Source of the DNA: Solirubrum puertoriconensis
Lineage (GTDB): Bacteria; Bacteroidota; Bacteroidia; Cytophagales; Hymenobacteraceae
Assembly (NCBI RefSeq): GCF_001483135.1
Contig: NZ_LNAL01000008.1
Coordinates: forward strand, 186,001 to 250,000
Reading direction: 5' to 3'
DNA: 64,000 nt
The translations under genes were made by a program, and so were the position numbers. The number at the start of each line of letters is the position of its first letter. Within the stretch, counting starts at the first letter, position 1. The notes beneath the pieces were generated by a model. The model was given only the letters and a program-made list of their open reading frames with translations, made no database searches and had not been told where the DNA came from. Positions 1,769 through 7,950 of the stretch are shown piece by piece.

Positions 1769-1808
1769 AAAACCGTTTCTGCCGAGCGTGGAAGCGGTTT
1801 TGTGTTTT
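1769..1808 (+). promoter_or_regulatory. Terminator-like hairpin in the mnmG leader
   Basis: AAAACCGTTTC (1769-1779) pairs with GAAGCGGTTTT (1791-1801) over 11 bp with one G-T pair, followed by GTGTTTT. A second short inverted repeat, GTTTTG/CAAAAC, follows at about 1803-1817. The structure lies between the promoter at 1718 and the mnmG start. It could attenuate mnmG or end a small RNA of about 75-80 nt. Neither has been shown. Confidence 0.45.
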
Positions 1809-1861
1809 GGCACAAAACGCGGGCTAACGCTGTTCATACCCTCCGAAACAACCCTCCAGCT

Positions 1862-3727
1862 ATGCTGACTCAGGAATACGATGTAATTGTGGTAGGCGCC
1901 GGCCACGCCGGTTGCGAAGCAGCGGCGGCCGCGGCCAACCTAGGCTCGAAGGTGCTGCTCATCACGATGAACATGAACACCATCGCGCAGATGTCGTGCA
2001 ACCCGGCCATGGGCGGGGTGGCCAAAGGCCAGATCGTGCGCGAGGTGGATGCCCTAGGTGGCCAGAGCGGCATCATCACCGACAAAACCATGATTCAGTT
2101 CCGGATGCTGAACCGCTCGAAGGGCCCCGCCATGTGGAGCCCCCGCGCGCAAAGCGACCGGATGCGTTTTGCCGAAGAGTGGCGCCTCACGCTGGAAGGC
2201 ATTGCAAACGTTGATTTCTGGCAGGAAGCCGTAACCGGCCTGCTGGTAGAAGGCGACGTGTGCGTAGGTGTGCGCACGCAGCTCGGCATTGAGTTCCGCT
2301 CGAAAACGGTGGTGCTCACCAACGGCACTTTCCTGAACGGCCTCATCCACATCGGCGAGAAGAACTTTGGCGGCGGCCGCGCCGCCGAAAGCAAAAGCAC
2401 CGGTATTACGGAGCAGCTGCGCGACCTAGGATTTGAAACCGGCCGCATGAAGACGGGCACGCCGCCCCGCGTGGATGGCCGCACGCTCGACTACGCGCGC
2501 ATGGAGGAGCAGCCCGGCGACGAAGAGCCAAGCAAGTTCTCGTACCTCGATACGCCGCGCCTCGCCAAGCAGCGCCCCTGCTACATCACCTACACCAACG
2601 AGAAGGTGCACGACATTCTGCGCACCGGCTTCGAGAAGTCGCCCATGTTCCAGGGCCGCATTAAGGGCCTAGGTCCGCGCTACTGCCCGTCGGTGGAGGA
2701 CAAAATCAACCGCTTCGCCGACAAGGACCGCCACCAGATTTTCGTGGAGCCCGAAGGCTGGAGCACGGTAGAGGTGTACGTAAACGGCTTTAGCTCGTCG
2801 TTGCCCGAAGACGTGCAATACAACGCGCTGCGCCAGATTGCCGGCTTCGAAAACGCGAAGATGTTCCGGCCGGGCTACGCCATCGAGTACGATTTCTTCC
2901 CGCCTACGCAGCTGCACCTCACGCTTGAAACCAAGCCGGTGCGCAACCTCTACTTCGCGGGCCAGATTAACGGCACCACGGGCTACGAGGAAGCCGCTTG
3001 CCAAGGCCTGATGGCCGGTATCAACGCCCATTTGCGCGTGCGCGAGCAGGAGCCGTTTGTGCTGCGCCGCTCCGAGGCCTACATCGGTGTGCTCATCGAC
3101 GACTTGGTGAACAAAGGCACCGACGAGCCCTACCGCATGTTTACCTCGCGCGCCGAGCACCGCATTTTGCTGCGCCAGGACAACGCCGACCTGCGCCTCA
3201 CGCCCTTGGCCCACAAACTGGGCTTGGCTTCGGATGAGCGCCTGCAGCGCGTGGAGCAAAAGCGCCAGCAAACCGCCGACGTGCTGGAGTACCTCAACAA
3301 GAAAGCCGTGGAGCCGGGCGAAATCAACGGGCTGCTGGTGGAGCTGGGTTCGGCCCCGATCAGCGAGAAAACCCGCGCCGTAAACCTGCTGCGCCGCCCG
3401 CAAATCGAACTTACCGATTTGCAGCGCGCTTTGCCCGAGCTCAGCCAGTACCTAGGCACCTACGGAGCTGAGGCGCTGGAGCAGGCGAGCATCCACGTGA
3501 AGTACGAAACGTACATCGAGAAGGAAAACCAGCAGGCCAAGCGCATGGGCGAGCTGGAAGATGTGCGCATTGTGGGCCGCCTCGACTACAAGCAAATGCC
3601 CGCCCTGTCGCACGAAGCGCGCGAAAAGCTGCTGCGTATTCAGCCCGAAACCATTGGGCAGGCCTCGCGCATCAGCGGTATTTCGCCGGCCGATATTTCG
3701 GTGCTGATGGTGTACCTGGGCAAATAA
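1862..3727 (+). CDS. mnmG: tRNA uridine-5-carboxymethylaminomethyl synthesis enzyme MnmG (GidA)
   Basis: This is the FAD-dependent subunit which, with the GTPase MnmE, installs cmnm5 or nm5 groups on wobble U34 of tRNAs. The N-terminal FAD Rossmann motif GAGHAG is at residues 12-17. Family signatures SCNPAMGGVAKG, GPRYCPSVEDK and GTTGYEEAACQG are all present. The C-terminal helical domain for tRNA and MnmE ends in PADISVLMVYLGK. With the ATG at 1862 the product is 621 residues, the usual family length; upstream in-frame sequence is leader. mnmG (gidA) lies next to oriC in many bacteria, and a DnaA-box-rich region begins 3 kb downstream. Confidence 0.98.
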   Translation: MLTQEYDVIVVGAGHAGCEAAAAAANLGSKVLLITMNMNTIAQMSCNPAMGGVAKGQIVREVDALGGQSGIITDKTMIQFRMLNRSKGPAMWSPRAQSDRMRFAEEWRLTLEGIANVDFWQEAVTGLLVEGDVCVGVRTQLGIEFRSKTVVLTNGTFLNGLIHIGEKNFGGGRAAESKSTGITEQLRDLGFETGRMKTGTPPRVDGRTLDYARMEEQPGDEEPSKFSYLDTPRLAKQRPCYITYTNEKVHDILRTGFEKSPMFQGRIKGLGPRYCPSVEDKINRFADKDRHQIFVEPEGWSTVEVYVNGFSSSLPEDVQYNALRQIAGFENAKMFRPGYAIEYDFFPPTQLHLTLETKPVRNLYFAGQINGTTGYEEAACQGLMAGINAHLRVREQEPFVLRRSEAYIGVLIDDLVNKGTDEPYRMFTSRAEHRILLRQDNADLRLTPLAHKLGLASDERLQRVEQKRQQTADVLEYLNKKAVEPGEINGLLVELGSAPISEKTRAVNLLRRPQIELTDLQRALPELSQYLGTYGAEALEQASIHVKYETYIEKENQQAKRMGELEDVRIVGRLDYKQMPALSHEAREKLLRIQPETIGQASRISGISPADISVLMVYLGK

Positions 3728-4712: not shown

Positions 4713-5008
4713 CAATACCCAGCATTTTGGAGCAGGGGAGAGCAATTGCTAAGCACATGATTGCACCCGGCCATACGTGCTCCTGAACAGCTGCTCGGTT
4801 ACAGTGACCTAGGGCGTAAGGCGGTGCAAGCCCGGGCGCATTTTAAGCGCGCCGTATTCGCTTTGTATTTTCGCCCGTGTGGCGGCGCCTGTGCGTACAA
4901 GCGCTGCTGGCCGGAAGTACTTAGCCTAGGGGCTGCGCGTTAGCTTCGGCAACGGCAGGCCACGCGGCTAGGTAGCCCGCATGTGTGCCTTTCATTCCCC
5001 GATCCTTC
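4713..5008. other. Intergenic region with a weak promoter
   Basis: No gene is supported in these 296 bases. TATTTTCG at 4866-4873 matches seven of eight positions of the Bacteroidota -7 element and could serve the lipoprotein gene downstream. Two copies of CCTAGG lie at 4808 and 4925. Confidence 0.5.
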
Positions 5009-6631
5009 ATGTTCGTACGCCCCCATTTGCTGTTGTTGCTGCCAGTTGGGCTTTCGGTAGCGGGTTGCGCAGCCATAAGCCAGCCCGAGGGCGGCGCCCG
5101 CGATACCGTAGCGCCCAAGTTTGTGAGCAGTTCGCCCAAAAACGGGTCTACCAACGTGTCGCAGCAAAGTATTCGGCTGGAATTTTCGGAGCCGGTGCAG
5201 CTGAAGGACCTGACGAAAAACCTCATCATCACGCCTAGCCTGGCCGAGGGCAACGAGTACAAAATTCGGGAGGAGCGCAATGCCATTGAGTTGCGCTTCG
5301 ATAAACCGCTCGACCCCAACACCACCTACGTGTTCAACTTCGGGGAGGCCGTGGTTGATATCACCGAGAGCAACAAGGCCGCCAACGTAGTGCTGGCGTT
5401 TAGCACCGGCGCGGCCCTCGACTCAGGCTCGGTAAGCGGCACGGTGGTGCAGTTGCTCACGGGCCAGCCCGAGGCCGATGCTGTTATTGCTTTGTACCCG
5501 GCCCGCGACACGGCTGATATCCGCCGCGCCCGGCCGTACTACCTAGGGCGCACCGACAAAAACGGGGCATTTAAGCTAAGCAACCTGCGCGCCGACAGCT
5601 ACCGCCTCTACGCCTTGGTCGACAGAAACCAGAACACCCGCTACGAGGAGCCCGAGCGCATTGCCTACCTGCCCCAGCCCGTGCAGGTGCAGCCCCGCGC
5701 CGATTCGTTGCGGTTGTTTACAGTACGGCCCGATGCGCGCCGGCCGCTTATCCAGGCGCAGCAACCGGGGGGCGCCCAGTTCCGCATCAGCTACAACGAA
5801 GGCCTGCGCCAGCTAACCTTGGCAGCCCTAGGTCGGCAGCCTACCCCCGAGCTAAACCAACTTGTTTCGTTGGCCGAGAAGGGACGTATCGCTGTTCTTC
5901 ACCGCGCGGCTGCGCTGCCAACGGGCCGTTACCTCGTTTCGGCTACGGATAGTGCCGGCAATGTGGGTGTTGATACTGTGAATGTGCGCTTCGAGGGACA
6001 AACAGCGCCGGTGCGCAAGGGGCCACAGTACCAGTTACCCAACAACCAACGCGAAACTCCCGCTACCGGTCAGCTACGCCTGCAGTTCAACGAGCCGCTG
6101 CGCTTGGCTACCAACAAGCCCTTCGCTACGTTAATCGAAGACTCCACTACGCGGCGCCCGTTGCGTGCCCCCGCCGACGGGCAACTCAGCCCCGACCGCA
6201 CCCAGCTTATCATCAATTTGAACACGCGGGCCCGCCGCGTCATCAGCATTGTGCCCGATAGCACCGCCATTACCGGTGTTACTGGTTTGTCGTTGGGGCT
6301 GCGGCCCGTGCGGCTGCGCGTCACCGAGCAAGCCACCACCGGCAGCCTGTCGGGTACCGTACAAACCGCAGCCAAGCGTTTCGAGCTACAGTTGCTCGAC
6401 GACAAATACCAGTTGATAGCGTCGCTGCAAAATCCGCGCACCTTTCGCTTTGACAACCTAGCGCCTGGCAACTACCGCCTGCGCGTACTCGTCGATGCTA
6501 ACAACGACGGCCGCTGGCAAGGCGCCGACCCGGGCTTGCGCCGCCCCGCCGAGCCCGTGTGGCTTTACCAGCAACCGCTAACGGTGCGTGCCAATTGGGA
6601 GGTCGAAGACATTCGCCTCAGCTTCAAGTAA
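5009..6631 (+). CDS. Ig-like (SbsA/Big_5-type) domain lipoprotein
   Basis: The 540-residue protein has a lipoprotein signal (hydrophobic LLLLLPVGLSV then lipobox VAGC), so it is probably anchored in an envelope membrane. Residues about 35-130 form a bacterial Ig-like domain of the SbsA type: VAPKFVSSSPKNGSTNV, then LEFSEPV and NTTYVFNFG. Later segments, FKLSNLRADSYRLYALVDRNQN and FRFDNLAPGNYRLRVLVDANNDG in pieces, resemble carboxypeptidase-regulatory-like/SdrD-B folds. The ATG at 5009 gives the signal peptide directly behind the start; an upstream in-frame GTG at 4985 would add eight residues. Homologues are widespread in Cytophagales, and their function is not known to me. Confidence 0.82.
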   Translation: MFVRPHLLLLLPVGLSVAGCAAISQPEGGARDTVAPKFVSSSPKNGSTNVSQQSIRLEFSEPVQLKDLTKNLIITPSLAEGNEYKIREERNAIELRFDKPLDPNTTYVFNFGEAVVDITESNKAANVVLAFSTGAALDSGSVSGTVVQLLTGQPEADAVIALYPARDTADIRRARPYYLGRTDKNGAFKLSNLRADSYRLYALVDRNQNTRYEEPERIAYLPQPVQVQPRADSLRLFTVRPDARRPLIQAQQPGGAQFRISYNEGLRQLTLAALGRQPTPELNQLVSLAEKGRIAVLHRAAALPTGRYLVSATDSAGNVGVDTVNVRFEGQTAPVRKGPQYQLPNNQRETPATGQLRLQFNEPLRLATNKPFATLIEDSTTRRPLRAPADGQLSPDRTQLIINLNTRARRVISIVPDSTAITGVTGLSLGLRPVRLRVTEQATTGSLSGTVQTAAKRFELQLLDDKYQLIASLQNPRTFRFDNLAPGNYRLRVLVDANNDGRWQGADPGLRRPAEPVWLYQQPLTVRANWEVEDIRLSFK

Positions 6632-6650
6632 GCTACTCACGCTGTGTGCT

Positions 6651-6682
6651 AGCCCCGGTGCCCTAGGTGCCGGGGCTTTTTT
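6651..6682 (+). terminator. Intrinsic terminator before the candidate origin
   Basis: A 12-bp stem (AGCCCCGGTGCC with its complement, two G-T pairs) with loop CTA is followed by TTTTTTG. It stops transcription from the lipoprotein gene before it enters the DnaA-box-rich region. Confidence 0.85.
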
Positions 6683-6689
6683 GTGCCTC

Positions 6690-7260
6690 ACGGAGCTGCA
6701 ATAGTCAATCTATATTCGGGGAAGTAACTACGCTCTGATTTTCAGCAGCATTGTTTTGCCCTGATATTCAGTTATCCACGAATCCACAGGGCATTGTGGA
6801 CTACTTAGGCCCGTTTCGGGGCCTTGGGCACACCTCCGGGGATAAGCCGTGGAAAACGACTGTATAACCAGTGGACAGCGGTGGAGAACTTTCGGAAAAG
6901 TTTTTTTGGTGTTTAGCGCCTCGTACCACTGCCAAACCGGTGTGAATAGCCGTGGACAACTTCCCCACGGTTTTGGCACTATCCACTATGCACACCCATG
7001 TGAATTCACACGGCTGTGAACAATTCTGTGGATTGTCGAAAAGCCTGTTAAGTAGCTGATCAATAAACTACTACTTTTCACATACCCTGTGGAAAGGCAG
7101 TGTATAAATGCGTTCTTGTGCACATGTTATCCAGCACTGTGCATAAGGCCCATTTTTATCCACTTATGCACCGCCCTAACAACTGAAGACAAAAAAGATT
7201 CTTAAAATTTTATTTAGTGAAAAGTTATTAGGCAGGTGGATAAGTTGGGGCCGAATTGAA
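6690..7260. other. Candidate chromosomal replication origin (oriC)
   Basis: The stretch between 6632 and 7458 is non-coding and dense in sequences close to the DnaA box TTATCCACA. One-mismatch boxes are TTATCCACG at 6772-6780 (+), TTATGCACA at 7138-7146 (-), TTATCCACT at 7156-7164 (+) and TTATCCACC at 7235-7243 (-). Many weaker ones (GTGGAC, GTGGAAA, TGTGGATTG, CTATCCACT, TTATCCAGC) fill the space between. An A+T-rich segment at about 7190-7232 resembles an unwinding element. TGTGAATTCACA at 6999-7010 is a 12-bp palindrome. mnmG, a frequent neighbour of oriC, is 3 kb away, and a parS site lies at 29.6 kb. No dnaA gene is in the window. The boundaries are approximate. Confidence 0.8.
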
Positions 7261-7458
7261 AAGCGTTGGAACGAAGCCGCGGGCTGAAAAGGCCGAACCG
7301 AAGCCCGCTCGGATAATGCCGGCGCGAAAAGCGGGTTAGCAGGCGAACGGATAGGTACTGGGCGAAAAGCAGAAGCCTAACGTGCCCGCCTCTCAGCGGG
7401 CAAATCATTTGCGCGGCGGTTTTGCGTATACAGCCACTCATTGCTGCCGCGCCGCACT

Positions 7459-7950
7459 ATGCCATTCGATTACACTCTCGATTTTCACCACGTCGATTTC
7501 CGAGCACAGCCCGAACTCTACCGGGTAGGCAAGGGTGAGCAAGGAGTTTTGCTCGTAGAGCCGTATAAGAGCGAGATCCTGCCCTTCTGGCGCTTTCGTA
7601 CGCCCGCGGTAGCACGCGAATCGTCGGAAGTGATTTACGGGCTGTTTCTGGCGTATTTGGAAAAATCAGACTTTGTAGGTGCCGATATGGCCCGAAAGTT
7701 CTTGCAGATGGGCTTTACCCGCGCCCGCCGCTACGCCAACCACCGCGGCGGCAAAAAGTACGATGGCCCCGTGCCCGACGATAAAAAAGGCCAAAGCGGA
7801 GCCCACGGCCGCGCCGAATTGCCCCGCACTGCCGAAGACCCCGTAAAAGCGGAGGCTGCTGCCATCTTCAAAGCCAAGTGGGACGAAGCCAAGCAGCACC
7901 CCGAGTACCTACGTCAAAAAGCCGAGTTCGAAGCGCGCTACGGCAAATGA
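7459..7950 (+). CDS. DUF4385 family protein
   Basis: The 163-residue soluble protein carries the conserved start of the DUF4385 family: FDYTLDFHHVDFR, ELYRVGKGEQGVLLVEPYK, then DFVGADMARKFLQMGFTRARRYANH in two parts. No function is established for the family to my knowledge. The charged C-terminal third (residues about 100-163) is probably helical. The start is the ATG at 7459, because an upstream TTG at 7441 would add residues outside the conserved core. It immediately follows the candidate oriC and is transcribed away from it. Confidence 0.85.
   Translation: MPFDYTLDFHHVDFRAQPELYRVGKGEQGVLLVEPYKSEILPFWRFRTPAVARESSEVIYGLFLAYLEKSDFVGADMARKFLQMGFTRARRYANHRGGKKYDGPVPDDKKGQSGAHGRAELPRTAEDPVKAEAAAIFKAKWDEAKQHPEYLRQKAEFEARYGK

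Follow-up and report, generated by a model that had tools for sequence, protein, structure and literature searches.

The window analysed here is a 64-kb stretch (C8:186001-250000) of a 4.80-Mb genome (G000) assembled in 8 contigs, and the candidate under study occupies its positions 6690-7260 (C8:192690-193260). The order of genes to the left is ybeY, an ATE_C-domain gene, mnmG, a methyltransferase gene and a Big_5-domain gene, the product of which is, by its N-terminus, a probable lipoprotein; a DUF4385 gene follows to the right. The intergenic gap covers 6632-7440 (its right end moves to about 7458 with the first ATG of the DUF4385 gene as start) and contains an 83-aa minus-strand open reading frame. 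It encloses the whole of 6690-7260, in agreement with the non-coding stretch described in an earlier sequence-only reading of this DNA. The same reading had placed the candidate beside mnmG, which holds loosely: the neighbourhood is right, but the methyltransferase and Big_5-domain genes lie between. The features of the locus are the following (window coordinates).

1802-3727, plus strand: mnmG (gidA), about 3 kb left of the putative oriC and directed toward it
4985-6631, plus strand: gene of the Big_5-domain protein, immediate left neighbour of the putative oriC
6690-7260, no strand: putative oriC, a cluster of 21 DnaA boxes (at most two mismatches) with a proposed unwinding element
6772-6780, plus strand: DnaA box TTATCCACG, one mismatch, left end of the cluster, position kept in 8/8 genomes
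6837-7124, no single strand: weaker boxes of the middle array (6837, 6848, 6880, 6941, 6951, 7015, 7027, 7088, 7099, 7116), all kept in 8/8 genomes
about 6999-7010, no strand: 12-bp palindrome TGTGAATTCACA between boxes, incompletely conserved within the genus
7138-7146, minus strand: DnaA box TTATGCACA, one mismatch, position kept in 8/8 genomes, TTATACACA in four of them
7156-7172, plus strand: tandem DnaA boxes TTATCCACT (7156, one mismatch) and TTATGCACC (7164), left edge of the core, pointing toward the A+T block, kept in 8/8 genomes
7156-7243, no strand: 88-bp core of tandem boxes, C-rich step, CTAAC, A+T block, GTTATTA and inverted box
7190-7232, no strand: A+T-rich block, proposed DNA unwinding element by composition and predicted stability
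7235-7243, minus strand: DnaA box TTATCCACC, one mismatch, right edge of the core, pointing toward the A+T block, kept in 8/8 genomes
7441-7950, plus strand: gene of the DUF4385 protein, right neighbour, the ATG at 7459 being the likelier start

A cluster of DnaA boxes in non-coding DNA, one of the marks of an oriC, is present at the candidate, where 21 boxes with at most two mismatches span 6772-7243, all within 600 bp, and no denser 600 bp occur in the 64-kb window. Comparison DNA (100 other 20-kb stretches from three genomes) contained at most 9 boxes per 600 bp, and 919 bp resampled to first order with the same dinucleotide make-up (n = 100) yielded 2.25 boxes on average and 6 at most, versus 21. 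The four one-mismatch boxes reported earlier at 6772, 7138, 7156 and 7235 in both orientations were found exactly as described, as was the 12-bp palindrome, and the many weaker boxes mentioned there are included in the total of 21. The next densest place (L018, C8:817701) comprises 9 boxes, namely two one-mismatch and seven two-mismatch sites. Throughout G000, pairs of good boxes on the same strand, at most 30 bases apart, are confined to two places, the candidate and a site upstream of a ribonucleotide reductase gene; G007 shows the same two places and G004 one additional place.

The latter site consists of three good DnaA boxes, lies 157-167 kb from the putative oriC and is conserved across three Hymenobacter genomes (G000 C8:25702-25740, i.e., L224:3701-3740; G004 C1:3011328-3011366; G007 C1:3247124-3247162). 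In G000 it precedes the ribonucleotide reductase small-subunit gene, with at most 6 boxes per 600 bp, and is likely a DnaA-regulated promoter.

An easily melted A+T-rich element, as looked for in or beside the box cluster of an oriC, can be read from the sequence alone: 35 of the 40 bases at 7191-7230 are A or T, and only one of the separate 50-bp stretches in 64 kb is less stable than 7181-7230. Both values bear out the A+T-rich block that had been claimed at 7190-7232. The core around this block measures 87-89 bp in 24/24 Hymenobacter loci (16 at 88, 7 at 87, 1 at 89) and keeps the order of tandem boxes, short C-rich step, A+T block (at least 81% A+T), GTTATTA and back-pointing box, with a CTAA element in 19 of the 24. 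The core pattern, which was written after the core sequences had been seen, occurred neither in 36 other Cytophagales loci nor in 3.96 million strand-bases of control, the control being 99 of the 100 stretches (L074 omitted). The A+T-richest 40 bases fall outside the core in two of 23 Hymenobacter loci (L150, L152). Runs of at least three DnaA-trios within 16 bp of a box were found beside none of the core boxes (7156, 7164, 7235); weak trio runs occur at three other boxes (7127, 7088, 6880), and the repeat near 7088 is lost in the genus alignment.

Within the genus, the stretch was found in 7/7 other genomes with 72-88% identity over 421-639 of 669 bases. An oriented alignment including the own genome revealed 15 box positions kept in 8/8 genomes, several of them changed in sequence yet still boxes. 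This sample of 8 genomes is narrower than the name Hymenobacter; it shares five genomes with the 24 named Hymenobacter loci, and the two sets are not independent.

The place of the cluster was also followed across the order by means of the Big_5 family. The loci considered were the best 80 of 129, i.e., those most like the Hymenobacter proteins, with the lineage taken from record titles, and a stretch of 600 bp counted as a cluster if it had 9 or more boxes, including 3 good ones, a threshold set after a first look at the loci. Among these best 80 of 129, a cluster lies directly 3' of the Big_5-domain gene in 57/60 Cytophagales loci (Hymenobacter 21/24, other Cytophagales 36/36), in one of two unclassified loci and in 0/18 loci of Flavobacteriales/Saprospiria. 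Likewise, mnmG is situated upstream within the flank in 24/24 Hymenobacter, 35/36 other Cytophagales and 0/18 Flavobacteriales/Saprospiria loci of this set and is the indicator gene near which the candidate has a conserved place. The DUF4385 gene is the right neighbour in 23/24 Hymenobacter and 0/36 other Cytophagales loci, again among the best 80 of 129. In the three Hymenobacter exceptions, the cluster follows about 3 kb downstream in two cases and about 10 kb in one. H. rubripertinctus (L157) was at first a candidate for an exception devoid of a cluster and was rejected as such, the cluster lying about 10 kb 3' of the gene on what is taken as the same contig. Loci L155, L183 and L227, from three Hymenobacter species, feature about 3 to 10 kb of extra DNA between the Big_5 gene and the cluster.

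The Big_5 family was matched in 117/117 sampled genomes of the order. Twenty of these 117, drawn from 17 families with one or two genomes per family, were searched, and the cluster was present near the Big_5 gene in 12 genomes (G010, G012, G013, G096, G020, G034, G023, G041, G044, G100, G088 and G069) from 10/17 families and absent at the gene in 8/20, with the cluster of G023 hardly exceeding its own shuffled control. The oriC has thus probably stayed with the Big_5 gene in many lineages and moved in others, which makes this gene a good, not a universal marker.

The check by GC skew that had been set beforehand was carried out in G004 and G007, close relatives whose chromosomes are almost closed, because the own assembly is split into 8 contigs. 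The main contigs of these two comprise 4,103,907 of about 4.2 Mb and 4,362,723 of about 4.6 Mb, respectively, and 40 stretches of 20 kb were sampled from each genome. With the origin set at the candidate, intergenic skew correlated with the chromosome arm at r 0.52 in G004 (permutation p 0.0008; 5.8% of scanned positions better) and r 0.60 in G007 (p printed as 0.0000 in 5000 permutations; 1.4% better), and the orientation-corrected total skew gave r 0.55 and 0.53 (2.4% and 5.5% of positions better). By these two measures, the best origin falls 0.01-0.17 Mb from the orthologous locus, and the check therefore came out in favour of the candidate. Uncorrected total skew fits best 0.25-0.29 Mb (G004) and 0.13-0.17 Mb (G007) from it. 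If the dif-like site is fixed as the terminus, intergenic skew places the best origin of G007 at 3.34-3.42 Mb, where the candidate lies, and that of G004 at 3.62-3.70 Mb, which is 0.5 Mb from the candidate. Among the measures, some move by 0.4-0.8 Mb or more in these genomes. On the own contig C8, the mean intergenic skew is -0.024 to the left (n = 5) and +0.026 to the right (n = 16) of the candidate (p 0.016), in a test that left out the first 6.7 kb and last 16.7 kb of the window as well as the stretch on C7.

A change in strand composition at the candidate is accordingly indicated by intergenic and corrected skew in two relatives and by the own contig, and opposed by gene orientation, fourfold sites and the skew within the window. 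Gene orientation shows no fit at the candidate (r -0.10 and -0.04 in G004 and G007) and fits best about 1.5 Mb away. Gene-strand bias was hence rejected as origin evidence, and the largely co-directional genes at 7.4-52 kb, which had been counted in favour of an origin, lend it no support. The genes at 1-6.6 kb, earlier regarded as a weak point, are indeed head-on; they are not a weakness, since relatives keep them in the same order and on the same strand. Fourfold-site skew was likewise discarded as weak evidence (r 0.09 and 0.10; p 0.27 and 0.26; best fit 0.15-0.7 Mb away). Within the window, the cumulative GC skew passes 7 kb without a turn, declines to about 28 kb and reaches its minimum near 60 kb; the missing turn may be due to plus-strand genes whose coding skew is negative.

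A dif-like site about opposite the candidate was found in the relatives, the own genome being in 8 contigs. The site, of the form GTTATAATTNNTATTATGTTAAGT, is located at C1:1038509 in G004 (L229), C1:1198263 in G007 (L230) and C7:806669 in G000 (L228), where it adjoins a TPR gene and gyrA (Pfam was run on the own genome only). Its distance to the antipode of the candidate amounts to 78 kb, or 1.9% of the genome length, in G004 and 30 kb, or 0.7%, in G007. These sites were picked by sequence likeness with the positions in view, not blind. Seven matches to the pattern exist in G007, and the chosen site (3 mismatches), not the one with the fewest, was taken as the same 24 letters occur in G004; of the two-mismatch alternatives, 1,063,611 is about 165 kb from the antipode and 2,292,672 far off. 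The one other match in G004, at 3,421,454, is not opposite the candidate. Several further families of the order also have sites whose core is similar. Predicted dif sites are described for 19/19 Bacteroidetes strains, 14 of them with the proteobacterial profile, in the available text of one study (PMC3025954).

In the order sample, 11 genomes were searched for dif. Six single-contig genomes with a cluster have the chosen dif-like site 0.1, 0.7, 2.8, 3.3, 3.4 and 5.0% from the antipode, and three with a dif-like site and no cluster have it at 31.1, 32.0 and 5.5%, the last being G038; G015, one of ten single-contig genomes, contains neither a cluster nor a core-like dif site by the rule and was excluded from these counts, as was G034, the contig of which is not the whole genome. 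Several genomes of the order have a second dif match, which was left unused. Together with G004 and G007, 8/8 cluster-bearing chromosomes place the site within about 5% of the antipode, a cut-off set on these same data, with a chance of about one in ten for each. The dif-like site stands 31-32% from the antipode in the single-contig genomes G037 and G030 (L242, L249), where the Big_5 gene is without a box cluster, and this suggests that oriC and the Big_5 gene are parted there.

The single dnaA gene lies at C8:1195116-1196690, 1.0 Mb from the candidate on the same contig, in line with the earlier statement that the window holds no dnaA. Its product matches solved structures including 8btg (C-terminal two thirds) and 1j1v (DNA-binding end) and contains GGRDHSTV, and the own DnaA is therefore expected to read ordinary DnaA boxes. 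No box cluster was found near the gene: in the 10 kb around it, no 600 bp contain more than 3 boxes, and the dnaA neighbourhood was rejected as an origin.

Taken together, positions 6690-7260 are very probably the chromosomal oriC of a Hymenobacter (Cytophagales). The sequence-only reading had already named them a candidate origin, and the skew of the relatives, the dif geometry, the conservation in the genus and the shared place in many Cytophagales support this. The cumulative skew within the window and the 8/20 genomes lacking the cluster lower the confidence very slightly. Computation directly shows the array of boxes with its conservation, the instability of the A+T block and, in the relatives, the skew and dif geometry; we infer that DnaA binds, that the block opens, that helicases load and that the site is active as an origin. 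DnaA would bind the about 20 boxes at 6772-7243, among which those at 7156 and 7164 (rightward) and 7235 (leftward) would bracket the A+T block; DnaA assembled at these bracketing boxes would open the block, helicases would load there, and two forks would then depart. The near-constant spacing of the core suggests an entry of DnaA from both sides. A symmetric opening core is a tentative and rather doubtful extension of this: TAAYRAC-like inward-flanked boxes, a flank read by eye from the core sequences without statistics, may face each other across 87-89 bp, so that DnaA could enter the A+T block from both ends, with one filament per strand and fork.

Other explanations of a box cluster have to be weighed against an oriC at this place. 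Loci that titrate or reactivate DnaA (datA- or DARS-like) are also clusters of DnaA boxes, and the skew resolves positions only to some 0.1-0.3 Mb, which would leave room for a real oriC elsewhere; still, the candidate is the densest place in the sampled DNA, the runner-up having 9 boxes in 600 bp, and it contains the unstable A+T block and lies about opposite the dif-like site in relatives. A locus of this kind is thus very unlikely. A region by which DnaA controls the promoters of the adjoining genes is even harder to credit and highly improbable. The same genome offers a likely case of such control upstream of the ribonucleotide reductase small-subunit gene, but that site offers three good boxes and a maximum of 6 per 600 bp, versus 21, and at the candidate the right neighbour differs between genera (DUF4385 in 23/24 versus 0/36 loci) and yet the cluster persists. 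An oriC adjoining dnaA is the usual arrangement in many bacteria. Here it can practically be dismissed, as dnaA lies far off amid sparse boxes and the sign of the intergenic skew is constant between the sampled stretches at 1.0 and 1.4 Mb of C8.

With the cluster at 6690-7260 read as oriC, the kind of element is known and ordinary, and what is new in detail is the Hymenobacter member and its core, as far as a literature search with DoriC outside its scope reaches. That search found no literature combining Hymenobacter, 'origin of replication' and DnaA, and none on a Hymenobacter origin among the matches listed. The locus provides a well-supported origin for Hymenobacter and, for many Cytophagales, a positional marker of oriC, 3' of the Big_5-domain gene that follows ybeY, mnmG and the methyltransferase gene. 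Such a marker can serve work with oriC plasmids and help to estimate growth rates from read depth. Going by the title of a 2012 report by Xu et al., oriC plasmids are said to replicate in Cytophaga hutchinsonii, a member of the same order as Hymenobacter.

In the available text of two sources, the oriC prediction of Ori-Finder and DoriC builds on clusters of TTATCCACA, an indicator gene and a skew extremum (PMC10225481, PMC6323995). The candidate resembles origins of this type in its box cluster, A+T-rich element and nearby mnmG, and differs in that mnmG is 3 kb off and directed toward oriC, the Big_5-domain gene adjoins and the skew is weak. For one flavobacterium, the accessible part of a further source gives an oriC at mnmG, obtained by Ori-Finder 2022 with skew (PMC12843772). 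The basal unwinding system (BUS), known from Bacillus subtilis among other bacteria, is described as a DnaA box, a spacer and at least three DnaA-trios (PMC8287927). In both systems, the presumed opening stretch comes at most a few bases after the tandem DnaA boxes. In contrast to the BUS so described, the core boxes of the candidate lack a run of at least three trios and face the A+T block from both sides. The two-sided core offers a concrete test case for the mechanism of origin opening: entry may be two-sided in the Hymenobacter core, whereas it is one-sided in the Bacillus-type BUS.
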